Below are positions 16,525 through 50,470 of a stretch of 64,000 nt of DNA, one piece after another. The notes under the pieces were generated by a model. That model saw only the letters and a program-made list of their open reading frames with translations. It did not search any database and was not told where the DNA came from. The DNA lies in contig NZ_VFNV01000001.1 of the NCBI RefSeq assembly GCF_006715765.1, positions 1,736,001-1,800,000 of the forward strand, given 5' to 3'. Position numbers and translations under genes: made by a program. Position 1 is the first letter of the stretch. Each line of letters starts with the position of its first letter. The DNA comes from Rarobacter incanus. GTDB taxonomy: Bacteria; Actinomycetota; Actinomycetes; Actinomycetales; Cellulomonadaceae.

Positions 16525-19065
16525 TTACTTGCGCTTGACCTTCACCTTGGCCGACTTCTTCGCCTTCACGCTCGCGGAATCCTGCGGCGTGAACTTGACG
16601 CTGATCTTTGCCTTCTTCGAGTAGCTCTTCGTCAATGTGACGGTGACTTTGCCCGCGTTCTTCTTGCGGAGCTTGACCGTCTTGACGGTCTTCTTCCCGA
16701 CCTTGATCGCGACTTTACCCGTGGCAACCGAACCGTTGGTCAACTTGCCAACGACGACCTTGACCTTGGTCTTCTTGCCCTTCTTCGTCTTCGTTGCCTT
16801 GACCTCGATGGACGATACGGCGGCCTTTGTCACCTTGAGGGTCGTCACCCCGAACGACTGGGTGTAGTTGTCGGACCCGGTGAAGGTAGCCGACAGAACG
16901 TGGCTGCCCACGCTCAGCCCAATCGCGGAAATCTGTGCCTTGCCGCCTGTCAGATCGACGGTTCCGGCCGGCTGGCCGTCGATCGTGAAGTCAACGGAGC
17001 CGGTGGCAGCGGGCGAGACCGCCGCCACAACAGTTGCCGAATTGCCGTACACGGTGGTCGGAGCGCTGAGCGAGGTGACGGTCCCGGCCTTGGTGATCGC
17101 AACCGCGCTGAGGCCCTGCGCCGCTTCGTAGAAATCCGAACCCGAGTACGAGGCCTGGACCGGGTATGCACCGACCCCAAGATCAGCAAGGACGAGTTCC
17201 GCCTTCCCCCCGGCGACCGGGACGTTCTTGAACTCATCGCCGTTGACCAGGAAATCGACCGTGCCCGTTGCGTCATCCGCCAGCGAAACTACGGCCGTCG
17301 GGGAAGACCCAAACTCCGCACCCGTCACGGTGAGAGCGAATTTGGGGTCGCCCTTGGCGACCTCGAGGCTCTGGGCTGACGAAGAGGACGTGAACGTCGA
17401 TGAATCGCCCTCGTACTTGGCAACGAGTGTGCTGGTTCCCGGCTTGGGTTCGTAGGTGAAAGTCACCTTGCCCTCCGCGTCGGTGGTGCCGGACTTTACC
17501 AGCGTGTCGCCGTCGTACAGGTCAACGGTTGCACCGCTCGCAGCGCCATCCACTGTCGCGGTAGCCGTCACGGTTTGCGGGTAGGTTATCGAATCGGCCG
17601 AAAGGGCGAGCGCCGTCTTGGTGGTTGCCTTCGCGGGCTCTGTTCCGCGGGCCTTGATGGCCGCATCAATCTTCCCGGCCATGATTGGCAGCTTCTCCGT
17701 GTAGCAGAAGCTCGATTCGTTGCTGAGGCAGGCGTTGCCGGTCGCTGCGAGCGCCGCGTCACCGTATCGGTAGCCGATGTTTGTCATCACGGAGATGATG
17801 TAGTGGCGGTACGGCTTGCCCGGAAGCGCCTTCACGATTCCCGCGTCCGCCCCGGCGTTGTAGGTCAGGCCGTACTTGTTGTAGTAGGTGACCTCGGCCT
17901 TCTCGTTGCACGGGCGCACGTCGATTGATGCGAATGGCGAGCCTGCCCAAGCGATCTTCGAGGTGCCGTTCGCGTTCAGCGTGGATTCCGGGACCACGGC
18001 GGGGATACCGGTAGAGGGGTACTGGCTTTCGCCCGTGTAGGGCGTGGTCCAGTTGCAGAAGTTTCCGGTGTCGAGCATCCAGTGGTACGCAGTGCCGGAC
18101 CAGATGTCCAGGAGCCACTGGCGGCCCTCGTCGCTCAAAATGCTAGAAGTCACGTCCAGCCCATCGGGGGTGGTCCACAGAACCCCGGTGCCGCCGCCAT
18201 CGAGCAGCAGGTCAAGTCGCGCGGTGTCGAACGAAGTCATGGTGACCCCGCCGTTCGACCAGCCACCGCCGGTGCTGGCGCTGGTGCCCTTGAGTTGCAG
18301 GGTCGACAGGCCAAGCTTTGCCAACTCGCTGTTCAGGAAGTCGATGCCGCTTTGGTCGTTGTATTGGACCTCGTGCAGCATCTTGATCATCGCGGATGCG
18401 GAGGTGTTGTTCGAGTACTGAATCATTTCCGAGGTCCACTGCGTGATCGACTTCGTGACGCCGTTGTAGGTGTAGGTGTCGGAGAAGTTGATGACATCGT
18501 GGTCCGCGAGGAATACCATGCCGAACGCGACCATCGACTTCAAAAGCGATGCCGGGTAGCTGGACATGTAACGCAGCGGGGCGTCCTCGCGTCCTTCGAC
18601 GATCGAGGTGCCGGTGCCGTAGTTGGTGCCATCGAACTTGGATTGATCCCACTTAATCCAGTTCACGGAGCTAGACGACATGGTCGAATCGATGGGGGCA
18701 ACGACACCGTTCGGGTAATCGCGCGAGACGATGATGTTGGCGCGGTCGCGGATCTTGCCCTGTTCGTCAAGTTCGATCACAGCAACGTCCACCTGCGGGG
18801 TGTACTTGGAGATCGTCTCGGTGTCGAAGTCGTAGGTCGAGCTGAAGTCGGCCTCCTCGACGGCCTTGAGGATGTCCGATTCGAGCGGAGTGTCGGTGCC
18901 GTCGGTTGCGGGGAACGTGACATCGGCGGGTGCGGCCTGGGCGGCCGCAGGGACCGTCAGTCCGACCCCGGCGATCGCTGTCGCGCAGCCGATCGCTAGG
19001 AGGCGTTGCCAACGCGGGAGCGTCGGTAGGCCGGTGCGGGTGGTTCGTGACACGGGTGTGCTCAC
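16525..19065 (-). CDS. Secreted beta-lactamase-fold serine hydrolase with Ig-like repeats
   Basis: An 846-residue exported protein. After the signal peptide (about 1-45) comes a domain of the class A beta-lactamase/DD-peptidase fold (about 60-470). The candidate active-site SxxK is in 'YPASLLKSM', and an SxN-like triad is in 'QYSNNTSASAM'; I did not find a clear KTG equivalent. Three Ig-like repeats of the Big_5 type (about 475-750) follow, each ending in a 'YEGD/YSGSDFY/FTGSDNY' strand. The last 90 residues are a lysine-rich basic beta module. There is no LPXTG signal. It may act on peptidoglycan or another surface peptide; antibiotic hydrolysis is less likely given the architecture. A divergent upstream gap holds the repeat array at 19.3 kb. 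Confidence 0.8.
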   Translation of the reverse strand: MSTPVSRTTRTGLPTLPRWQRLLAIGCATAIAGVGLTVPAAAQAAPADVTFPATDGTDTPLESDILKAVEEADFSSTYDFDTETISKYTPQVDVAVIELDEQGKIRDRANIIVSRDYPNGVVAPIDSTMSSSSVNWIKWDQSKFDGTNYGTGTSIVEGREDAPLRYMSSYPASLLKSMVAFGMVFLADHDVINFSDTYTYNGVTKSITQWTSEMIQYSNNTSASAMIKMLHEVQYNDQSGIDFLNSELAKLGLSTLQLKGTSASTGGGWSNGGVTMTSFDTARLDLLLDGGGTGVLWTTPDGLDVTSSILSDEGRQWLLDIWSGTAYHWMLDTGNFCNWTTPYTGESQYPSTGIPAVVPESTLNANGTSKIAWAGSPFASIDVRPCNEKAEVTYYNKYGLTYNAGADAGIVKALPGKPYRHYIISVMTNIGYRYGDAALAATGNACLSNESSFCYTEKLPIMAGKIDAAIKARGTEPAKATTKTALALSADSITYPQTVTATATVDGAASGATVDLYDGDTLVKSGTTDAEGKVTFTYEPKPGTSTLVAKYEGDSSTFTSSSSAQSLEVAKGDPKFALTVTGAEFGSSPTAVVSLADDATGTVDFLVNGDEFKNVPVAGGKAELVLADLGVGAYPVQASYSGSDFYEAAQGLSAVAITKAGTVTSLSAPTTVYGNSATVVAAVSPAATGSVDFTIDGQPAGTVDLTGGKAQISAIGLSVGSHVLSATFTGSDNYTQSFGVTTLKVTKAAVSSIEVKATKTKKGKKTKVKVVVGKLTNGSVATGKVAIKVGKKTVKTVKLRKKNAGKVTVTLTKSYSKKAKISVKFTPQDSASVKAKKSAKVKVKRK

Positions 19066-19319: not shown

Positions 19320-19513
19320 GTGCGCGCTCGGCGCGTGCGGGGTGCGTGTGACTGGAAGGGGCGCGGTCGGCGCTTGCGAGGGTGCCTGGGGTCGTCGAGT
19401 GCGGGGTTTTGGTTCGAGTGCGCCGGTTTGTGCAGGGGTTGTGACTGAAAGGGGCGCGGTCGGCGCGTGTGGGGGTGCCCGGGGACGCCGAGTACGGGCG
19501 TCCGGGATGCTCG
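19320..19513. repeat. Modular repeat array A
   Basis: About two units of a GC-rich modular repeat also found at 35475-36480 and 50033-50470. Recognisable parts are TCGAGTGCGGGGTTTTGG, TTCGAGTGCG, GTTTGTGCAGGGGTTGTGAC, TGAAAGGGGCGCGGTCGGCG and GGGGGTGC. It fills most of the gap between divergent genes (19066-19581), where no gene is supported. Confidence 0.85.
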
Positions 19514-19581
19514 GCCGGCGAAGTGAGGCGCGGTGACATACTGTGATCCCGACTATTCGGACACTGAAAGTGAGCGCCACC

Positions 19582-21993
19582 ATGGTTCCGCCCCCCGCCA
19601 ACGCCAACGCCAGCGCCCACCCGGCACAGGGCCTTGCTGCCGAAACGGATGCAGCGGACCTGCACGATCACATTCGGGTCGTGGGCGCGCGCGAAAACAA
19701 CCTACGAAACGTTGCCGTCAGTATCCCGAAGCGTCGGTTGACGGTCTTCACGGGCGTGTCCGGGTCGGGCAAGAGCTCGCTCGTTTTCGATACGATCGCG
19801 GCGGAATCGCAGCGACTCATCAACGAAACATACTCGGCCTTCTTGCAGGGGTTCATGGGGGCATCCGCGCGCCCAGACGTCGACGTCCTGGAGGGCCTGA
19901 CAACCGCCATAGTCGTGGACCAAGAACGCATGGGAGCCAACGCCCGTTCGACCGTCGGCACCGCAACCGACGCCGGGGCCCTGCTTCGCATCGTGTTTTC
20001 GCGCCTGGGCACACCCCACATCGGGCCGCCCAATGCGTTCTCCTTCAATGTCGCGTCCGTATCAGGGCAAGGCGCGGTAACTGTCGAAAAGGGCACCAAG
20101 GCCACAAAGGAAGTGCGCCGGTTCCAGATCCTGGGCGGAATGTGCCCGCGGTGTGAGGGTATGGGGACGGTCAACGACATCGACTTGACCCAGATTTTCG
20201 ACGAAAACAAGTCGCTTTCGCAGGGGGCGATCACGGTTCCCAATTACACCCAAGACGGCTGGTACGTGCGCCAATACATGGAGTCTGGCCTGCTCGACCC
20301 CGACAAGGCGATCAAGGACTATTCGCCGAAGGAGTTGGACAACTTCTTGTATCACGCCCCGACAAAGCTACGCATCGGCGGCATGAACCTCACCTACGAA
20401 GGGCTGATCCCCAAGATCACGAAGTCCTATCTGTCGAAAGATCTAGATGCCGTCCAGCCGCACATTCGCGCCTTTGTCGAGCGCGCGGTCGTGTTCAAGC
20501 AATGCCCCGACTGCGGCGGCAGCCGGCTGAGTGAAGCGGCGCGCTCGGTCAAGGTTGCCGGGCTGAACATCGCGCAGGTGTGCGCAATGCCCATCACCGA
20601 TGTTGCCGACTGGCTGCGGACCGTCCAGGACCGGGCCGCCGCACCACTGATCGATGCTCTCCAGGCGTTGCTTGACTCGTTTGTGCGTATCGGTCTTGGC
20701 TACCTGAGCCTAGATCGCGCCAGCGGGACCCTGTCGGGCGGGGAGGCGCAGCGAACCAAGGTAGTGCGTCACTTGGGTTCGGCGCTCACCGACATCACCT
20801 ACGTTTTCGACGAGCCAACCGTCGGGCTCCACCCGCACGACATCGAGAGGATGAACGAGGTGCTGCTTCAACTGCGCGACAAGGGCAACACCGTGTTGGT
20901 CGTCGAGCACAAACCCGAAACGATTGCGATTGCGGATCACATTGTTGACATCGGCCCCGGCGCCGGCACCGCTGGCGGACAGATCTGCTTCGAGGGTACG
21001 GTCGCGGAACTTCGTGCATCCGACACCCTAACGGGGCGCCATTTTGGTGACAGGGCAAGCATTAAGGAGGAGTTCCGCGTCCCCGCCGGCAACATCGCCG
21101 TCCGCGGCGCTGATTTGCATAACCTCCGCGGTGTCGACGTTGACATCCCGCTCGGTGTGCTGACTGTTATTACGGGGGTTGCGGGTTCGGGGAAAAGCTC
21201 ATTGATCGAGGGATACGTCGCCGGACGCGACGGCGTGGAGTGGGTTGACCAGAGCGCGATCAAGGGTTCGCGGCGCTCGAACCCAGCCACCTATACGGGC
21301 TTGTTGGAACCGGTTCGCAAGGCATTCGCGAAGGCGAATGCGGTCAAGCCTGCTCTCTTTAGCGCCAATTCGAGCGGGGCCTGCCCCGCGTGCAAGGGAG
21401 CGGGGGTCATCTTCCAGGACCTGGGGATCGTCGCGACTACAGCAACGGTGTGTGAGGCCTGCGAGGGCCGCAGGTTCGATCCGTCCGTCCTGGAGTACAA
21501 ATTCGGTGGGAAGGATATCGCGCAGGTTCTGGAGATGCCGGTCGCGCAAGCGGTCGAATTCTTTGGCGGCGAAGGCAAACTAGCCGCGGCGCACGCCATC
21601 GCTTCGCGGCTAGAGCGGGTCGGTTTGGGGTACGTTTCTTTGGGGCAACCGCTCACCACGCTGTCGGGAGGCGAGCGCCAACGATTGAAGCTCGCGACGC
21701 ACCTGGGCGCCAAGGGCGGAACCCTGATACTCGACGAGCCGACGACCGGGTTGCACCTGGCCGACGTCGACGCGCTGCTGGCGCTGTTGGATGGTTTGAT
21801 CGGCGAGGGCAAGTCGTTGATCGTGATCGAACACCACCAGGCGGTCATGGCGCATGCGGATTGGATCATCGATCTGGGCCCCGGGGCGGGCGCCGACGGC
21901 GGGAGCGTCGTGTTCAGCGGGACCCCGCGCGACATGGTGCGCGAACGCGCGACCTTGACGGCTAAACACCTCGCCGACTACGTCGGGGCGTGA
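19582..21993 (+). CDS. UvrA2-like excinuclease ATPase
   Basis: An 803-residue double ABC ATPase of the UvrA family, shorter than housekeeping UvrA (about 940-1,000) and thus like the UvrA2/DrrC group that lacks the UvrB-contact region. Walker A sites are GVSGSGKSS near the N-terminus and GVAGSGKSS in the second half. Signatures are LSGGEAQRTK and LSGGERQRLK, with Walker B segments FDEPTVGLHPHD and LDEPTTGLH. Zinc-finger cysteines are retained (CPRCEGMG, CPDCGG, CPACKGAG, CEACEGRRF). Proteins of this group have been linked to DNA damage tolerance or resistance to DNA-binding drugs. I use the ATG at 19582; a GTG at 19543 is possible. It meets a pyrimidine-dimer glycosylase gene tail to tail without any gap. 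Confidence 0.9.
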   Translation: MVPPPANANASAHPAQGLAAETDAADLHDHIRVVGARENNLRNVAVSIPKRRLTVFTGVSGSGKSSLVFDTIAAESQRLINETYSAFLQGFMGASARPDVDVLEGLTTAIVVDQERMGANARSTVGTATDAGALLRIVFSRLGTPHIGPPNAFSFNVASVSGQGAVTVEKGTKATKEVRRFQILGGMCPRCEGMGTVNDIDLTQIFDENKSLSQGAITVPNYTQDGWYVRQYMESGLLDPDKAIKDYSPKELDNFLYHAPTKLRIGGMNLTYEGLIPKITKSYLSKDLDAVQPHIRAFVERAVVFKQCPDCGGSRLSEAARSVKVAGLNIAQVCAMPITDVADWLRTVQDRAAAPLIDALQALLDSFVRIGLGYLSLDRASGTLSGGEAQRTKVVRHLGSALTDITYVFDEPTVGLHPHDIERMNEVLLQLRDKGNTVLVVEHKPETIAIADHIVDIGPGAGTAGGQICFEGTVAELRASDTLTGRHFGDRASIKEEFRVPAGNIAVRGADLHNLRGVDVDIPLGVLTVITGVAGSGKSSLIEGYVAGRDGVEWVDQSAIKGSRRSNPATYTGLLEPVRKAFAKANAVKPALFSANSSGACPACKGAGVIFQDLGIVATTATVCEACEGRRFDPSVLEYKFGGKDIAQVLEMPVAQAVEFFGGEGKLAAAHAIASRLERVGLGYVSLGQPLTTLSGGERQRLKLATHLGAKGGTLILDEPTTGLHLADVDALLALLDGLIGEGKSLIVIEHHQAVMAHADWIIDLGPGAGADGGSVVFSGTPRDMVRERATLTAKHLADYVGA

Positions 21994-25435: not shown

Positions 25436-28324
25436 CTAGCTAATCCGGGCGCGCTTGCTCGCCGCCTTCAGCAAATACCGCTTTGCCTTACCGGACGGCT
25501 TGAAGGTGGCCTGCACCCGCATGCCCTTGGTGACGGACCCGGGAAGCTTCACCGTGATCTTGCCGCGTTGCTTTGCTCTGACCTTCACGCGCACGACCGT
25601 GCGGCCCACGCGCACCACCAAGCGGCCGGTTGGCTTGCCGGTGGCGGCGGTCGTGACTGCGACCCGTAACCGTATTTTGCCGCCGGTCCTCTTCGCCTTC
25701 TTGCGAACGACCACCTTCACCTTGGCCTTCGCCGCTGTCTTTTTCACCGACGAGGCCCGCGCCAACGCAAACCCGCTCTTGCGCGCGGTGACCTTCACCC
25801 AGATCTGCTTTCCGACGTCGGCCGTGCGGATCTTGTAGCGCGCACCGGTAGCGCCGCTGGCGGCGGCGTTGCCCACATACCACTGGTATGTCGCTGTCAC
25901 GCCCGACTGCGACCAGGCGCCGGAGGTCGCCGATACGTTCGCTCCGACTCTAAAGGTGCCCTGGAGCCGTGGGGCGGAGGTGGCGACCATGACGCGCGAA
26001 GAGCCGTCGCCGGGGTTGGCTGTGCCGCCACCATCGCCGGGGTTGGCTGTGCCGCCACCATCGCCGGGGTTGGTTGTGCCGCCGTCGCCACCATCGCCAC
26101 CATCGCCGGGGTTGGTTGTGCCGCCGTCGCCACCATCGCCACCATCGCCGGGGTTGGTTGTGCCGCCGTCGCCACCATCGCCACCATCGCCGGGCGCGGG
26201 GCACTCCAATCCGTCCTTGTTCGCCCCGGCTTCCTCGCAGGGAAAGTCCACGCCCCCAACCGCACTCGACGCGAAGGGCTGATCCGGCGCCGAAGCCGAT
26301 CTGACGATCTCCCACGTGCCCCACGGGAACCACCCGGACACCCGCCCCAGCTTCGAGTCGTGCCAGTTGTCCGCGGCGAAGCTCACGTAGGTATTGCCGA
26401 CGGTGAAGTCCTGGATGCTAACCCCGATCGAATTCTGCCCGATTGCCACCTGCGCGCCGCCGCTGTCGGCGTCGTAGTCGGCGTACAGCTGGTTGTCCAG
26501 GTTGGTTGCGCTATCGGCGGGAACCGCCCACCCGTCCACATGCAGGCCTTTGACAACGAAGTTGTAGGTATTCGCAAGTGCGTAGATCCGGAAGGCGCAA
26601 CCGGTGGCGCCCTCGACGTAGGTGTCTTCGATGCGGATATCGCGAATGGTCGCACCGGTCGAAGCTCGATCGTTGCGGCCGTCAAAATCCCAGTGGCGCG
26701 ATGAATTCAGCACACAGGTATTAATCGTGTCCCACTGCAACTGGTTGTGTATCACGTATGTGCGCGAGATCTCGACATTCGAGACGTTCCGCGGGACCCA
26801 TCCCCACTGGATTACGGGCCCGTTGGGCCCCTTCCACACCACCGTGTTATCGATCGTGACGTTCGAATGATAGATCTTGAGGGCATCGTCGTTCGCTTGC
26901 AGGAACGAATTCTTCATCGTTGATCCCGCATACAGTTCCAGGCCGTCCGTCTGCCAGTACCACGCGCCGACCTGGTGATAGTTGCGAACCCGCATGGTGA
27001 AGGAATCGTAGTCCCCATAGACGACAAATGAATGGTACGAGGGCTCCGCGATGGTCACGCCCTGCAAATCCAGGGTCTGCGCAACTCCCTGCGCCGAGTC
27101 GAAGCGCAGCGGTTTGACGCAGTCCGCATGGCAGTTGTCGTACTTCGCCGGGTCCCGGCGCGTGTAGCCATCGTTGCGGGTATCCGCTTCGTAGACGTAT
27201 TGCTCCCCGGAAAGCACCCCGAACCCGGTCACCTTGTAGTTCGTGATGGATGCATTCGCGGAAAAATCGAAGGCGCCTTTGACGTATGCCCCCGGCGCCA
27301 GGTAGACCCAGCGCACGCGCGGGTTCAATTGGGCACGATAGGCGGCACCCATCGAATAGGTGCCCGGTTCGAAGTAGATGATGTCGGCGTCGACGGTATC
27401 TAAATTGGTCACGGAACCCTGGGCAGGACGGTAGATCGTGCCATCCGCGTCAGTTGGTACGGTTCCGGAATCCTGCTGCGCATCCGGTTCGGCAAACACC
27501 ATCATCGCGTTCCTCGGTTCGACCATGGCCGCCACGGATGCATCGATGGCGGTGGAGGCGGCCTCGTTCATATAATCGCGGTTGGGCCCGGAAACCTGCG
27601 TCAGCTCGGGTGAGAACTCGACGGAGAATCTGTACCCGTCGGGGGAATACGGGATCTTGATGCGAACGGTGTGATCGTTCACCAGGAAGCGGGTGAACCC
27701 GAGCTGGCGCGGCTTGATCTGCACCTGATCAATCGAGCTAACGGTGGCGCCCGTATCCAACGCGACGTCTATCCACACGTCGCGCGAAAACTCGAACGTG
27801 GTCCAGCTCATCGTTTGGTGACCGTCTTCTACGCCTTGTTCGGCGGCGATCGCCTCGGCATCCTCCCACGCGTTTTCGGCACCGTCGTTCTGGTAGCCGT
27901 CCGTCGCGGTGCCGTACCCGGGCTTGCCCTTGCCGGAACGCGGGATCGTCAAGTACGTGAACGAATCGAACCACTCGTCCTGCGCATCGTCCGTGGCGAC
28001 CTGCACCGTGTAGAACGGTGACTGGCGCACTGCACCGTCGGCGACGGGCGTATCGGAATTCTTCTCGCCGTTGGCGTGCCACCAGGTGACCAGCCCCTCC
28101 GATTGGGAAGTGGCGGGGGTCGATTCCCGGGCCGCGGTCGATGCTTGGAGATTGCGGTTCGTCGCCGCCGATTGCGTGGTCGTAGCCGATGCGGCCGGGC
28201 CGGCAGAGGTCGCCGCGCTCGGGGTTGGCGCGGCGAGCGGTGGCACCAATGCAAGTGGGATGGCCAGGACTAGGGCCGCGGCGAAAGGCAGGCCCTTGCG
28301 GAGGATTGTGCTGCGAAGGTGCAT
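25436..28324 (-). CDS. Secreted GH49-like dextranase/isopullulanase-family protein
   Basis: A 962-residue exported protein. The ATG at 28324 gives a signal peptide (basic start, long Ala/Leu/Pro core); in-frame starts further upstream add unlikely sequence. Family markers of GH49 are the N-terminal beta module beginning 'TWWHANGEKN' with 'TPVADGAVRQS', then 'YRFSVEFSPEL', 'DIIYFEPGTYSMGA', 'WVYLAPGAYVKGAF'. The right-handed beta-helix has Asp-containing motifs 'WQTDGLELY' and 'NDDALKIYHS'. Known members cut alpha-1,6 or pullulan linkages. The catalytic part ends near residue 725. It is followed by a GDGG/TTNPGDGG linker, an Ig-like module (about 790-860) and a basic Arg/Lys-rich beta module to the end. 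There is no LPXTG. A decayed paralogue lies just downstream. Confidence 0.85.
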   Translation of the reverse strand: MHLRSTILRKGLPFAAALVLAIPLALVPPLAAPTPSAATSAGPAASATTTQSAATNRNLQASTAARESTPATSQSEGLVTWWHANGEKNSDTPVADGAVRQSPFYTVQVATDDAQDEWFDSFTYLTIPRSGKGKPGYGTATDGYQNDGAENAWEDAEAIAAEQGVEDGHQTMSWTTFEFSRDVWIDVALDTGATVSSIDQVQIKPRQLGFTRFLVNDHTVRIKIPYSPDGYRFSVEFSPELTQVSGPNRDYMNEAASTAIDASVAAMVEPRNAMMVFAEPDAQQDSGTVPTDADGTIYRPAQGSVTNLDTVDADIIYFEPGTYSMGAAYRAQLNPRVRWVYLAPGAYVKGAFDFSANASITNYKVTGFGVLSGEQYVYEADTRNDGYTRRDPAKYDNCHADCVKPLRFDSAQGVAQTLDLQGVTIAEPSYHSFVVYGDYDSFTMRVRNYHQVGAWYWQTDGLELYAGSTMKNSFLQANDDALKIYHSNVTIDNTVVWKGPNGPVIQWGWVPRNVSNVEISRTYVIHNQLQWDTINTCVLNSSRHWDFDGRNDRASTGATIRDIRIEDTYVEGATGCAFRIYALANTYNFVVKGLHVDGWAVPADSATNLDNQLYADYDADSGGAQVAIGQNSIGVSIQDFTVGNTYVSFAADNWHDSKLGRVSGWFPWGTWEIVRSASAPDQPFASSAVGGVDFPCEEAGANKDGLECPAPGDGGDGGDGGTTNPGDGGDGGDGGTTNPGDGGDGGDGGTTNPGDGGGTANPGDGGGTANPGDGSSRVMVATSAPRLQGTFRVGANVSATSGAWSQSGVTATYQWYVGNAAASGATGARYKIRTADVGKQIWVKVTARKSGFALARASSVKKTAAKAKVKVVVRKKAKRTGGKIRLRVAVTTAATGKPTGRLVVRVGRTVVRVKVRAKQRGKITVKLPGSVTKGMRVQATFKPSGKAKRYLLKAASKRARIS
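26015..26194. repeat. Linker-encoding tandem repeats (27 bp x2, 42 bp x3)
   Basis: Two 27-base units (26015, 26042) are followed by three 42-base units (26069, 26111, 26153). Both lengths keep the frame and encode GDGG and TTNPGDGG peptides between the catalytic and wall-facing parts of the GH49-like protein. The near identity of the copies points to recent slippage or gene conversion. Confidence 0.95.
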
Positions 28325-32551: not shown

Positions 32552-33370
32552 TTAGATGACGCGGATGAATGTCGGGTTCTTCTGATACATGGTGCGCACG
32601 TGAATCGACTTGCCCGGACGCGGCGAATCGATGATCTTGTTTCCGCCCAGGTAGATTGCGACGTGGCCGGGAGTCCAAATGATGTCGCCCGCCTTCGCCT
32701 TGGCGCGGCTGATTTTCTTACCCGCGGTGCGCTGCGCCGACGACGTGCGCGGCAGGGAGACCTTGACTGAATGGCTGAAGACGTACTTCGTGAAGCCCGC
32801 GCAATCGAAGCCCTTGGGCGTCGTGCCGCCGTAGCGGTAGGGCGTGCCGATGTGCTTCTTGGCCGCGGCGACGATCGCCTGGCGTTCGGTGAGCACCTTC
32901 ACCGTGACGCGCTTCTTGGCGGAACGGTAGCCGTTTGCCGCACCGCGCGCGTTGGGGGTGACCCGAACGGTGAGCTTGGTCTTTCCCGAGCGCAGGTTCT
33001 TTGGGAGGCGCACGCGAGTGCGCGTTGACTTCACCTTGGCCCGGGCAATGGTCTTGCCCCGAGCGATCACGGCGATGGTGAAGCCGCGGGCAGCTTTGCG
33101 GGTCTTGACGGTGAGAACGATCCTGTCGGACTTGCGTGCGCCATTGATCTGGGTCTTTGCGGACTTCTTGACGGTGAAGGGGATCGCCTTGGTGGCCTTT
33201 GCGGTCGGGGCCGCGGGCGTTGCGGTCGGGGTCGCGGTCGCCGCTTGCGCGGCAGTCGTGGCCACAATGGGAGTTGCTAGTGCCGTAGCGAATGCAACGG
33301 CGAGAGCCAGGCGGCGCGGCGCGCGGCTGTTGCGGCGCGCTTGGGCGCGCCCGTGGACGGATGTCGTCAC
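32552..33370 (-). CDS. Secreted NlpC/P60 peptidoglycan endopeptidase
   Basis: A 272-residue exported cell-wall hydrolase that should cut the peptide stems of peptidoglycan. The GTG at 33370 has GAGAGG seven bases before it; an ATG 16 codons upstream falls inside the riboswitch and is rejected. A signal peptide (basic, then Ala-rich) is followed by a Thr/Pro/Ala linker, then a lysine-rich beta module (about 65-160). The NlpC/P60 domain (about 165-272) has catalytic Cys in 'FDCAGFTKYVF', His in 'GHVAIYLGG' and a third polar site at 'KIIDSP'. Expression is likely controlled by the c-di-AMP riboswitch directly upstream and possibly by a CRP-type regulator. Confidence 0.93.
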   Translation of the reverse strand: MTTSVHGRAQARRNSRAPRRLALAVAFATALATPIVATTAAQAATATPTATPAAPTAKATKAIPFTVKKSAKTQINGARKSDRIVLTVKTRKAARGFTIAVIARGKTIARAKVKSTRTRVRLPKNLRSGKTKLTVRVTPNARGAANGYRSAKKRVTVKVLTERQAIVAAAKKHIGTPYRYGGTTPKGFDCAGFTKYVFSHSVKVSLPRTSSAQRTAGKKISRAKAKAGDIIWTPGHVAIYLGGNKIIDSPRPGKSIHVRTMYQKNPTFIRVI

Positions 33371-33375
33371 AGGTA

Positions 33376-33546
33376 ACCTCTCGTCGCCTACGAAGTTAGC
33401 TGTCGGGTTCGGGCTCAAGGTCTGCCCGGCCGATTTCTCGGCTTCACCCCTGACGCGGCACGTGCCGCGTCGTTGGGTCCCCCGTCGCCGCCATGGGTTC
33501 TATGGACTCGTTGCCGGTGGCGGCGCTAGGCGCTGGCAGCGAGGTC
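33376..33546 (-). promoter_or_regulatory. ydaO/yuaA-type riboswitch (c-di-AMP)
   Basis: Read on the minus strand, the leader contains the diagnostic words of the ydaO motif in order: GGGGGACCCA, a palindromic stem (GACGCGGCAC-GTGCCGCGTC), GGGGTGAAG, AACCCGACAGCTAAC and GTAGGCGA. The closing helix can form between CTCGCTGCC at the 5' edge and GGCGACGAG at the 3' edge. In actinobacteria this riboswitch class typically precedes rpf and NlpC/P60 genes and turns them off when c-di-AMP is high. Borders are approximate. Confidence 0.92.
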
Positions 33547-35339: not shown

Positions 35340-35374
35340 TAGACCAGGAGCCATAGTCTCCTACGGTTGGATCG

Positions 35375-35412
35375 GCGGGGGCCGCTGCTTTCGGGCAGCG
35401 GCCCCCGCTTTT
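35375..35412 (+). terminator. Intrinsic terminator after livK
   Basis: A perfect 14-base GC stem (35375-35388 with 35395-35408) and a six-base loop, followed by TTTT at 35409-35412. Confidence 0.92.
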
Positions 35413-35474
35413 GCGTTGTTCGGTGCTAGCGCCGCCGCCCGGCTTTCGTTCGGTCTTCGCCCGGCTTCCGCCCG

Positions 35475-36480
35475 TCGAGTGCGGTGTTTTGACTAAAACG
35501 GGCGCGCTCGGCGCGTGTGGGGGTGCATGTACTCGTCGAGTGCGGGGTTTTGGTCCGAGTGCGGTGGTTTGTGCAGGGGTTGTGACTGAAAGGGGCGCGG
35601 TCGGCGTCTGCGGGGGTGCGCGAACTCGCCGAGCGCGGGGTTTCGGTTCGAGCGCACCCGTTTAGTTCGAGTGCGCGGGGTTTCCCGCGGGGGCGAGTGG
35701 CTGAAAGGGGCGCGGTCGGCGTTTGCGGGAGTGCGCGGGGACGCCGAGCGCTGGGCTTTGGTCCGAGTGCGCCCGTTTAGTTCGAGTGCGCGGGGTTTCC
35801 CGCGGGGGCGAGTGGCTGAAAGGGGCGCGGTCGGCGCGCGCGGGGGCGCGCGGGGACGCCGAGTGCGGGGCTTTGGTTCGAGTGCGGTGGTTTGTGCAGG
35901 GGTTTTGACTGGAAGGGGCGCGGTCGGCGCTTGCGGGGGTGCGCGGGGTCGTCGAGTGCGGGGTTTTGGTTCGAGTGCGGTGGTTTGTGCAGGGGTTTTG
36001 ACTGGAAGGGGCGCGCTCGGCGCTTGCGGGGGTGCGCGGGGACGTCGAGTGCGGGGTTTTGGTTCGAGTGCGCGGGCGGCTCGACCCGCGAAGGTTGCTG
36101 TTCTTGGCCGGCCCTGACTGAAAGGGGCGCGGTCGGCGCGCGCGGGGGCGCGCGGGGACGTCGAGTGCGGGGTTTTGGTTCGAGTGCGGTGGTTTGTGCA
36201 GGGGTTTTGACTGGAAGGGGCGCGGTCGGCGCGCGCGGGGGTGCGCGGGGTCGTCGAGTGCGGGGTTTTGGTTCGAGTGCGCGGGGTTTCCCGCGGGGGC
36301 GAGTGACTGAAAGGGGCGTGGTCGGCGCGCGCGGGGGTGCGCATACTCGTCGAGTGCGGGGTTTTGGTTCGAGTGCGCGGGGTTTCCCGCGGGGGCGAGT
36401 GACTGAAAGGGGCGCGGTCGGCGCGCGCGGGGGTGCGCGGGGTCGTCGAGTGCGGGGTTTTGGTCCGCGTGCGGTGCGGG
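35475..36480. repeat. Modular repeat array B (about 10 units)
   Basis: About 1 kb of head-to-tail units. Each unit has a fixed leader (GTCGAGTGCGGGGTTTTGG, then TTCGAGTGCG). One of three inner modules follows: GTGGTTTGTGCAGGGGTTTTG; CGGGGTTTCCCGCGGGGGCG; or a longer one with CGGCTCGACCCGCGAAGG and TTCTTGGCCGGCC. A fixed trailer (TGACTGGAAGGGGCGCGGTC, then GGCGCGCGCGGGGGTGC) ends the unit. Units with the first module are 93 bases long. The inner modules occur in mixed order. Long open frames cross the array on both strands but have no ribosome sites. No gene is supported here. Confidence 0.93.
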
Positions 36481-36975
36481 CTAGCTCAACGGCCGGTACA
36501 TCACGTGCAGCGGGACAAGCCCGGCCGCCGGGTGCTCGAACGCGCGCGGAATCGTTGCGACAATGACGAAGCCCAAGGAGCGCCACAGCGCCAGCGCACG
36601 GTGGTTCGTAGAAACCACGGCATTGAACTGCATTCCGGTATACCCGTCCGCGCGGCACTGCCGCAGCACCGCCAGCCCCAGAGTGCGCCCAATGCCGCGC
36701 CCCGAAAACATCGGTGAAACCGCGAAGCCGGCGTTCGCCACCATGGAACCTTGCGCGAACTGGTTGGGGTGGAACTCGGCCGTACCGAGCACGGTTTCGT
36801 CCTCATCGACAGCGACAAGCACTCGGCCGCCGGCCTTATCCAACCACCAATCAAGAACCTCGGTGCGCGACGCGTCGCGCGGGAAGCAATAGGTTTCGCC
36901 GGCGCGGATGGCGGGCTCCAGGGCACCCCAGATTCCCGATTCATCGGCCACGATCGCTTCGCGAATGAATACCAA
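36481..36975 (-). CDS. GNAT-family N-acetyltransferase
   Basis: A 164-residue acyl-CoA-dependent acetyltransferase. The TTG start at 36975 has AAGGAG six bases upstream, which decides it. The acetyl-CoA binding motif A is 'VSPMFSGRGIGRTLG' (pattern R/Q-x-x-G-x-G/A), followed by 'FNAVVSTNHRALALWRSLGF', the usual Asn...LY/LW motif B. The closest functional groups are phosphinothricin/amino-acid or protein N-acetyltransferases, but the acceptor is unknown. It lies 68 bases after livF on the same strand and its stop borders repeat array B. Confidence 0.88.
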   Translation of the reverse strand: MVFIREAIVADESGIWGALEPAIRAGETYCFPRDASRTEVLDWWLDKAGGRVLVAVDEDETVLGTAEFHPNQFAQGSMVANAGFAVSPMFSGRGIGRTLGLAVLRQCRADGYTGMQFNAVVSTNHRALALWRSLGFVIVATIPRAFEHPAAGLVPLHVMYRPLS

Positions 36976-41272: not shown

Positions 41273-41494
41273 GAGCCGTCCTTTTGTCAGTGCGACGCTC
41301 GGATAAATGCGCGGCGCCCTGGATGCTAGGTGTGCGCTCGCAGGCCGCTGCGCTCGTTGTCAATGCGACGTTAGGCGGCGAATGTATCGGTGCGGTTTCG
41401 AATCAGTCACAGGCGCGTGCCGACCCGCAGATCGAGTGGCGTCCGCGCCGATCGAGTGCGCCTCCCCCCGCAGATCGAGTGCGGTGTCCGCGCT

Positions 41495-42530
41495 GATCGA
41501 GTGCGCCGTAGGCGTGTATCGAGATCAAGAACTGGGTGGTCTCGATATGCCCGCTGCGCGGGCTACTCGACCAGCGGGGTGTGCTTCGTTGATCGAGGGG
41601 GTGTGCTTCGTTGATCGAGTGCGCCGTAGGCGTGTATCGAGATCAAGAACTGGGTGGTCTCGATATGCCCGCTGTGCGGGCTGCTCGACCGGCGGGGTGT
41701 GCTTCGTTGATCGAGGGGGTGTGCTTCGTTGATCGAGTGCGCCGTAGGCGTGTATCGAGATCAAGAACTGGGTGGTCTCGATATGCCCGCTGCGCGGGCA
41801 ACTCGACCGGCGGGGTGTGCTTCGTTGATCGAGGGGGGTGTGCTTCGTTGATCGAGTGCGCCGTAGGCGTGTATCGAGATCAAGAACTGGGCGGTCTCGA
41901 TATGCCCGCTGTGCGGGCTACTCGACCAGCGGGGTGTGCTTCGTTGATCGAGGGGGGTGTGCTTCGTTGATCGAGTGCGCCGTAGGCGTGTATCGAGATC
42001 AAGAACTGGGCGGTCTCGATATGCCCGCTGTGCGGGCTACTCGACCAGCGGGGTGTGCTTCGTTGATCGAGGGGGTGTGCTTCGTTGATCGAGTGCGCCG
42101 TAGGCGTGTATCGAGATCAAGAACTGGGCGGTCTCGATATGCCCGCTGTGCGGGCTACTCGACCAGCGGGGTGTGCTTCGTTGATCGAGCGGGGTGTGCT
42201 TCGTTGATCGAGTGCGCCGTAGGCGTGTATCGAGATCAAGAACTGGGCGGTCTCGATATGCCCGCTGTGCGGGCTACTCGACCAGCGGGGTGTGCTTCGT
42301 TGATCGAGCGGGGTGTGCTTCGTTGATCGAGTGCGCCGTAGGCGTGTATCGAGATCAAGAACTGGGCGGTCTCGATATGCCCGCTGTGCGGGCTACTCGA
42401 CCAGCGGGGTGTGCTTCGTTGATCGAGCGGGGTGTGCTTCGTTGATCGAGTGCGCCGTAGGCGTGTATCGAGATCAAGAACTGGGCGGTCTCGATATGCC
42501 CGCTGTGCGGGCTACTCGACCGGCGGGGTG
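41495..42530. repeat. Tandem array D, nine units of 118-119 bp
   Basis: Units start at 41495, 41613, 41731, 41850, 41969, 42087, 42206, 42325 and 42444. Each carries GATCGAGTGCGCCGTAGGCG, then a TCGAGA...TCTCGA inverted pair around ATCAAGAACTGGGC, then the palindrome GCCCGC-TGT-GCGGGC flanked by TCGATAT and TACTCGACC. A twice-repeated GGTGTGCTTCGTTGATCGAG closes the unit. The last six copies are almost identical; the first three carry more differences (GGGTGG, CTGCGCGGG). The array fills the gap between livH and the septum-formation gene; 41273-41494 shows only degenerate TCGAGTG words. Confidence 0.97.
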
Positions 42531-42548
42531 TGCGGGCGACCGGGCCGG

Positions 42549-50032: not shown

Positions 50033-50470
50033 AACGTCGAGTGCGGGGTTTTGGTTCGAGTGCGGTGGTTTGTGCAGGGGTTTTGACTGGAAGGGGCGCA
50101 CTCGGCGCGCGCGGGGGTAGCCGGGGTCGTCGAGTGCGGGGTTTTGGTTCGAGTGCGGTGGTTTGTGCAGGGGTTTTGACTGGAAGGGGCGCACTCGGCG
50201 CGCGCGGGGGTGCCCGTACTCATCGAGTGCGGTGGTTTGGTTCGAGTGCGCGGGCGGCTCGACCCGCGAAGGTCGTCGTTCTTGGCCGGCCCTGACTGGA
50301 AGGGGCGCACTCGGCGCGCGCGGGGGTAGCCGGGGTCGTCGAGTGCGGGGTTTTGGTTCGAGTGCGGTGGTTTGTGCAGGGGTTTTGACTGGAAGGGGCG
50401 CACTCGGCGCGCGCGGGGGTGCCCGTACTCGTCGAGTGCGGGGTTTTCTGGGGGGCGCGTGACTGGAAAG
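50033..50470. repeat. Modular repeat array C (about 4 units)
   Basis: The same modular family as arrays A and B, with the first inner module (GTGGTTTGTGCAGGGG) three times and the long CGGCTCGACCCGCGAAGG module once. The trailer here reads GGCGCACTCGGCGCGCGCGG. At its left edge (49976-49992) is GCATATCGAGACCGCCC, which is the reverse complement of part of the array D unit. The array and flanks fill the divergent gap 49920-50651, where no gene is supported. Confidence 0.92.

Follow-up and report, generated by a model that had tools for sequence, protein, structure and literature searches.

A modular repeat array between convergent genes

The window analysed here is a 64,000-nucleotide stretch of the chromosome of the actinobacterium Rarobacter incanus. 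At 35475-36480 (+), between convergent genes, it holds an array with ten leader copies of a unit of about 93 nt, which combines a near-constant part of 73 nt with an exchangeable middle and at least four exchangeable tails. The typical unit, of 93 nt, reads GACTG(A/G)AAGGGGCGCG(G/C)TCGGCG and continues with a variable middle (for example CGTGTGGGGGTGCCCGGGGTCG), the constant core TCGAGTGCGGGGTTTTGGTTCGAGTGCG and a tail. The first copy of the leader GACTGAAAGGGGCGCGGTCGGCG, a divergent one, occupies 35491-35513 (+) and the others start at 35584, 35699, 35814, 35907, 36000, 36116, 36209, 36305 and 36401; exact copies of the core lie at 35952-35979 (+) and from 36045, 36161, 36254 and 36350, as well as from 19395 and from 50037, 50130 and 50339 at two other loci of the window. 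The original prediction of a repeat family with a constant leader is borne out, and the family is larger than had been noted (22 loci genome-wide). The three inner modules that it described are in fact four tail types: D1 (GTGGTTTGTGCAGGGGTTTT), D2 (CGGGGTTTCCCGCGGGGGCGAGT), D3, an additional 19-nt word (TCGAGTGCG-CCCGTTTAGT) that sits before D2, and D4 (43 nt, CGGGCGGCTCGACCCGCGAAGG...CCCT). Along the main array the tails follow in the order D1, D3+D2, D3+D2, D1, D1, D4, D1, D2, D2 and a truncated last unit, with unit spacings of 93, 96, 115 and 116 nt. The D3 word followed by the D2 tail, with a hairpin GCGGG-GTTT-CCCGC, spans 35657-35698 (+) and recurs as a pair at 35772-35813; D2 stands at 36282-36304 (+) and again at 36378-36400; and D4, which includes the right half of a palindromic, REP-like element (GCGGGCGGCTCGACC), lies at 36073-36115 (+) and also at 50251. 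The window contains 40 occurrences of the 9-mer TCGAGTGCG, where 1.55 would be expected by chance.

No cellular role of the arrays is evident. The upstream gene has its own intrinsic terminator at 35374-35415 (+), 60 bp ahead of the main array, which is therefore not needed for that purpose; terminator-like sites number 7 against 3.1 by chance, one of them belonging to the upstream gene, and we reject terminator function together with promoter function (no sigma-70-like promoter). The covariance models of Rfam 15 find no known RNA family in the three window arrays, and the typical unit folds no better than shuffled sequence (z = -1.0; one variant reaches -2.8). G-quadruplexes are discarded as well, G4Hunter scores being barely above those of shuffles and motifs with loops up to 12 being absent. 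A protein-coding repeat is rejected because the frame is broken in 11 of 55 units, whose lengths 3 does not divide (spacings of 94, 96, 115 and 116 nt are mixed in); long ORFs over the main array are expected in G+C-rich DNA. Two antisense ORFs, at 35493-36344 (-) and 35777-36658 (-), span the array with 283 and 293 aa and will probably enter annotations as spurious proteins rich in proline, arginine and threonine.

The two other loci proposed for the window are real, at 19350-19513 (+) and 50033-50447 (+), and all three arrays occupy gaps as predicted, two between divergent genes and one between convergent ones. The first is a two-unit array between genes at 16525-19065 (minus) and 19543-21993 (plus). 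The second, between divergent exoIII-like and MFS genes, has the tails D1, D1, D4 and D1, two identical units flanking the D4 unit, and a leader variant (GCACTCGG) specific to the locus. Elsewhere in the window, a c-di-AMP riboswitch (RF00379, 65 bits) lies at 33373-33509 (-), at the start of a gene at 32552-33418 that looks like an NlpC/P60-type wall hydrolase, and perfect, in-phase tandem repeats of 27 and 42 bp at 26007-26194 are probably inside a coding region.

Distribution along the chromosome and in other species

BLAST and pattern searches recover 22 loci of the array family in the whole chromosome, a single contig of 2.486 Mb that is 99.98% complete. The arrays are known from this one assembled genome of one strain, in which the sequence worked on comprised the array loci and the stretches around dif. 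They measure about 0.1-1 kb, and by the gene calls of our own hexamer model, which leave a few array flanks approximate, all 22 are intergenic (6 divergent, 4 convergent and 12 tandem pairs). Insertions that break genes would presumably be lost, leaving arrays between genes. The arrays are denser close to dif: 12 of the 22 lie no more than 300 kb away (p = 0.002). One array has at its 3' end an uninterrupted G homopolymer of about 40 bases (chromosome positions ~322,447-322,490), likely a hypermutable or assembly-sensitive site.

Searched with a degenerate 27-mer, 84,980 species give no match to the 93-nt unit family, and 39 relatives give no convincing one, the best outside matches being G+C-rich stretches of about 25-54 nt with E above 1e-6. 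A search for a phage or plasmid origin likewise gave no match. One protein of the window has its best named relatives in Oerskovia, Cellulomonas and Microbacterium (59-66% identity). In a sister species, two of the window loci keep their neighbouring genes, but the spacers between them are short, about 275 and 217 bp, and contain nothing of the unit; the corresponding spacers here measure 1141 and 672 bp, and those of the sister species do not align with them. On this comparison, the arrays look like additions within this lineage; loss in the sister species is possible, but less likely than gain here because no other genome searched carries the arrays.

Unit alleles are recombined within and between loci

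The 55 complete units have 31 variable sites, and all four allele combinations occur at 349 of the 465 site pairs. Mean r2 between sites of the unit falls from 0.18 at distances below 10 columns to 0.04 at 30 columns or more. Units are only slightly more similar within a locus (0.852) than between loci (0.821), a difference reached by 1 of 1000 label shuffles; the best match lies at another locus for 24 of the 55 units and within the own locus for 31, and the tail D4 is found at 1262k, 1309k, 1771k, 1786k and 1867k. The variant sites of the units are thus extensively recombined within and between loci, in keeping with the exchange that had been proposed. That the modules look shuffled is confirmed genome-wide by the site pairs; within the main array it is not, as three adjacent pairs of units have a common tail and shuffled order gives the same in 23% of trials. 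These pairs, together with runs of near-identical units at 777k and 484k, argue that ordinary tandem duplication, initially set aside, is present as well; a two-unit block is also duplicated at 50033. Two processes, local duplication and exchange between loci, are at work together.

A palindromic element joins the unit at runs of G

Many arrays contain a second element, the palindromic repeat GGTCTCGATACGC-CCGCTGCGCGGGC-AACTCGACCAGCGGGG, and module borders are located mostly at runs of four or five G. Where the unit resumes after the palindrome, it does so directly after a GGGG or GGGGG run at 16 of 21 scored junctions (copies of one junction repeated inside an array not being independent events). 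The 16 cover three of the five such runs in the unit, and a fourth, between CAGGGG and TTTTGACTGG, serves as junction at 1866k. Since the unit has five such runs per 93 nt, the placement of junctions is not random. Entry into the palindrome is likewise mostly after a G-run plus TG, at different G-runs in different loci, and D4 is the unit joined to the right half of the palindrome via GCGCGGG.

The palindrome also forms arrays by itself. One, at 41473-42533 (+) of the window between two minus-strand genes, consists of nine 119-bp copies (GGTCTCGATATGC...CTCGACCAGCGGGG) that have the half-site word TCGAGTGCG in common with the main family; the copies are near-identical (97% match) and the array is a recent expansion. 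Two others, at 430k and 436k, are both large and stand 6 kb apart in opposite orientation. The word GGTCTCGATACGC occurs 88 times here, against at most once or twice in other genomes of the same taxonomic family. Within the class, 67 of 395 genomes carry the palindrome family, with up to 217 copies in other genera, where it forms intergenic arrays with constant ends (TCGATACGC / CTACTCGACC) and exchangeable inner palindromes. These arrays are apparently an undescribed class-wide actinobacterial mosaic family, of which we infer the 93-nt unit to be an asymmetric offshoot; a literature search by sequence words, with subscription papers mostly outside its scope, found no description of either in the papers it listed.

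Array orientation follows the replichores

Two features had escaped the first reading of the window: the link to this actinobacterial TCGATACGC/CTCGACC palindrome family, and a replication-strand polarity. The G-rich strand is the leading strand at 21 of the 22 array loci (two-sided binomial p = 1.1e-5), and still at 16 of 17 when loci less than about 50 kb apart are merged (p about 3e-4). The replichores are set by dnaA at 1,592,734 and by a dif-like site (GATAATGTACGTTATGTCATT) at 374,969, which coincides with the cumulative GC-skew maximum and falls between the last plus array (346k) and the first minus array (424k). The sole exception is the array at 540.7k, which has reached at least four units. 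The polarity is not accounted for by gene direction: in the 12 tandem contexts the G-rich strand runs with transcription in 7 and against it in 5. The palindrome standing alone is unpolarised (5 of 10, Fisher p = 0.006), and the two elements differ in composition: the unit has a GC skew of 0.42 and a TA skew of 0.44, the palindrome 0.03 and -0.09. The near-symmetric palindrome within the arrays serves as an internal control.

Outside the arrays, the leading strand has an excess of G-runs that ranges from 1.5x (GGGG) to 1.8x (GGGGG). Landing at G-runs, taken as the sole cause, would give a polarity of at least 21 of 22 with a probability near 8e-4; it adds to the polarity, and so modest a bias is insufficient to yield 21:1 alone. 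The strongest leading-strand signals outside the arrays are generic 6-letter G-run words: no KOPS-like word was found, and among the words of 7 or 8 letters in the unit none shows a strong leading-strand bias there. In E. coli, several G-rich repeats are more mutable when the G-rich strand is on the lagging template, a (G4T)4 dimer behaving in the opposite way (PMC10530614). The orientation of the arrays is that of the less stable case in that study, with the lagging template carrying the G-rich strand, and this favours a mutational origin of the polarity over a stability filter.

Replication as a possible copying device

We hypothesize that tandem duplication enlarges the arrays and that template switching at short homologies, coupled to replication, disperses them, a tentative reading to which we give a probability of roughly 0.45. 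The arrays would be non-coding, non-autonomous intergenic mosaic repeats that originated within this lineage. In place, they would grow by tandem duplication and unequal exchange; between loci they would spread and be re-assorted through switches at short homologies, the runs of four or five G, most likely by template switching or repair coupled to replication, a nascent strand with a partial unit dissociating, annealing at an exposed G-run of another fork or unit and copying on. Switches between equivalent strands (lagging to lagging, leading to leading) would hold the G-rich strand leading in both replichores, which would explain the 21 polarised loci. That the switching takes place at the fork, and that the polarity arises from it rather than from later selection, is inferred. 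Several observations weigh on the other side: RecA-dependent gene conversion between existing copies predicts identical recombined alleles, a copy in the wrong orientation could instead be removed by selection, and the array at 540.7k expanded in spite of its opposite orientation. Moreover, palindrome-only arrays have expanded tandemly both ways, so that local expansion itself needs no polarity, and the G-run excess of the leading strand does not by itself produce the observed ratio.

Selection could account for the polarity without any switching: insertion would occur either way, a copy whose G- and T-rich strand forms the leading-strand template would impede the fork or upset the strand asymmetry of the chromosome and so disappear, and spread would be the work of ordinary homologous recombination. 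The near-complete polarity of a unit with so strong a G and T excess, its absence from the nearly symmetric palindrome and the enrichment of G-runs on the leading strand elsewhere are all compatible with this; yet a single non-coding array of 200-500 bp would need strong counter-selection, the main array lacks a compact G-quadruplex motif (loops up to 12), and several G-rich repeats assayed in E. coli are less, not more, stable in the orientation that the arrays have ((G4T)4 dimer opposite, PMC10530614); we regard selection as rather unlikely. Strand polarity is also the hallmark of the IS200/IS605 route (PMC6006769), and a mobile element copied via single-stranded DNA into the lagging-strand template, by an enzyme, HUH or other, that has since been lost or is of an unrecognised type, would fit 22 loci here and none in the relatives searched. 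Of the features of an IS200/IS605-type transposon, the strand bias (21/22) is present, a Y1 transposase and fixed ends are not. The genome has no Y1/RAYT transposase, array ends vary, starting and stopping at many points of the unit with no common end or target site seen, and the one reverse transcriptase found belongs to a group II intron-like ORF, all of which makes such an element improbable.

Local tandem duplication alone, with all loci seeded once from one polymorphic ancestral array and no exchange between them, would suit the 31 units that match best within their own locus, the near-identical runs at several loci and the two-unit block repeated at 50033. It is quite improbable given the 24 units that match best elsewhere, the decay of linkage over distance inside 93 nt and the entry of the palindrome at different G-runs in different loci. 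The arrays could finally have a function as a polarity signal, their orientation being kept for use by a directional machine of the chromosome (FtsK-type translocase or recombination hotspot): this orientation tracks the replichores and flips around dif, close to which they are concentrated. A conserved requirement is contradicted by their absence from the sister species and the taxonomic family, words of 7 or 8 letters from the unit show no strong preference for the leading strand elsewhere, and the loci are just 22 and clustered; we hold this to be very improbable.

Template switching during replication remains our preferred reading. Three marks in 22 young arrays, strand polarity, G-run junctions and recombined alleles, together point to the fork as the copying device, and the polarity suggests that the arrays were assembled or sorted by chromosome replication itself. 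The stronger proposition, that a transposase-free family spreads by strand switching at G-runs between forks, each new locus inheriting the polarity of its donor, is possible and more doubtful. It speaks to the question of how small bacterial repeats multiply without a transposase; if true, it would mean that replication can carry repeats to new places in bacterial genomes. It could also explain the tandem REP arrays of Pseudomonas fluorescens SBW25, which are reported to run forward at about 2 Mb and in reverse around 4 Mb (PMC3116915), as if linked to the replichores.

Relation to known repeat systems

Several identities were discarded. The arrays are not CRISPRs, as the would-be spacers (the tails) recur within and between loci. 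RAYT/REPIN elements are ruled out by the lack of any match to PF01797 (RAYT, Y1 HUH transposase) in the whole genome, the five control genomes being positive; the unit being non-palindromic and without a match in any library searched, a known REP or IS end, which would have overturned the original prediction, was not found. A diversity-generating reverse transcriptase or retron was likewise excluded, the sole reverse transcriptase found being the intron-like one at 1.383 Mb; its ORF (chromosome 1,382,732-1,383,418) lies beside an IS3-like transposase ORF. MITEs are a less clear case: inspection shows no constant termini, and the sister-species spacers, against which target duplications would be read, do not align.

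BOX elements and mycobacterial MIRU are small repeats between genes, modular or in tandem, and the arrays resemble them in this general respect, as they do the BOX and RUP elements of Streptococcus pneumoniae (PMC3049150). Neither BOX/RUP nor MIRU is known for replication polarity. The actinobacterial palindromic family, GGTCTCGATACGC-(variable palindrome)-CTACTCGACCAGCGG, recognised here by its pattern, supplies modules of the arrays, has the half-site words TCGAG and TCGAGTGCG in common with the unit and, in other genomes, combines constant ends with exchangeable inner palindromes; it is near-symmetric, unpolarised when alone here and widespread in the class, whereas the 93-nt unit is found only here.

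That no described element has this structure, as first thought, was too strong, the architecture being that of BIMEs (PMC2817692) and of the NIMEs of Neisseria (PMC3898611). The BIMEs of enterobacteria and pseudomonads (PMC2817692, PMC3116915) are also mosaic, intergenic and short; they are built of alternating palindromic REPs and associated with RAYTs, whereas the unit here is a non-palindromic direct repeat, and of the 20-40 nt palindromic unit of BIME/REP elements only the inserted palindrome is reminiscent. NIMEs (dRS3 plus RS repeats) are intergenic, a few hundred to a few thousand bp long, with short words separating exchangeable modules; they are lineage-specific and proposed drivers of local recombination (PMC3898611), and arrays of about 0.1-1 kb agree with their definition by size (200-2700 bp) and by short repeats separating variable modules. 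The dRS3 inverted repeat ATTCCC(N8)GGGAAT is not in the arrays as read, and no report of replication polarity of NIMEs is known to us. The present arrays differ from NIMEs in sequence, in being head-to-tail with one orientation per replichore, and in having their modules joined at G-runs. They thus belong among the bacterial intergenic mosaic repeats, with BIMEs and NIMEs, and are distinguished by their replication polarity and their G-run junctions.
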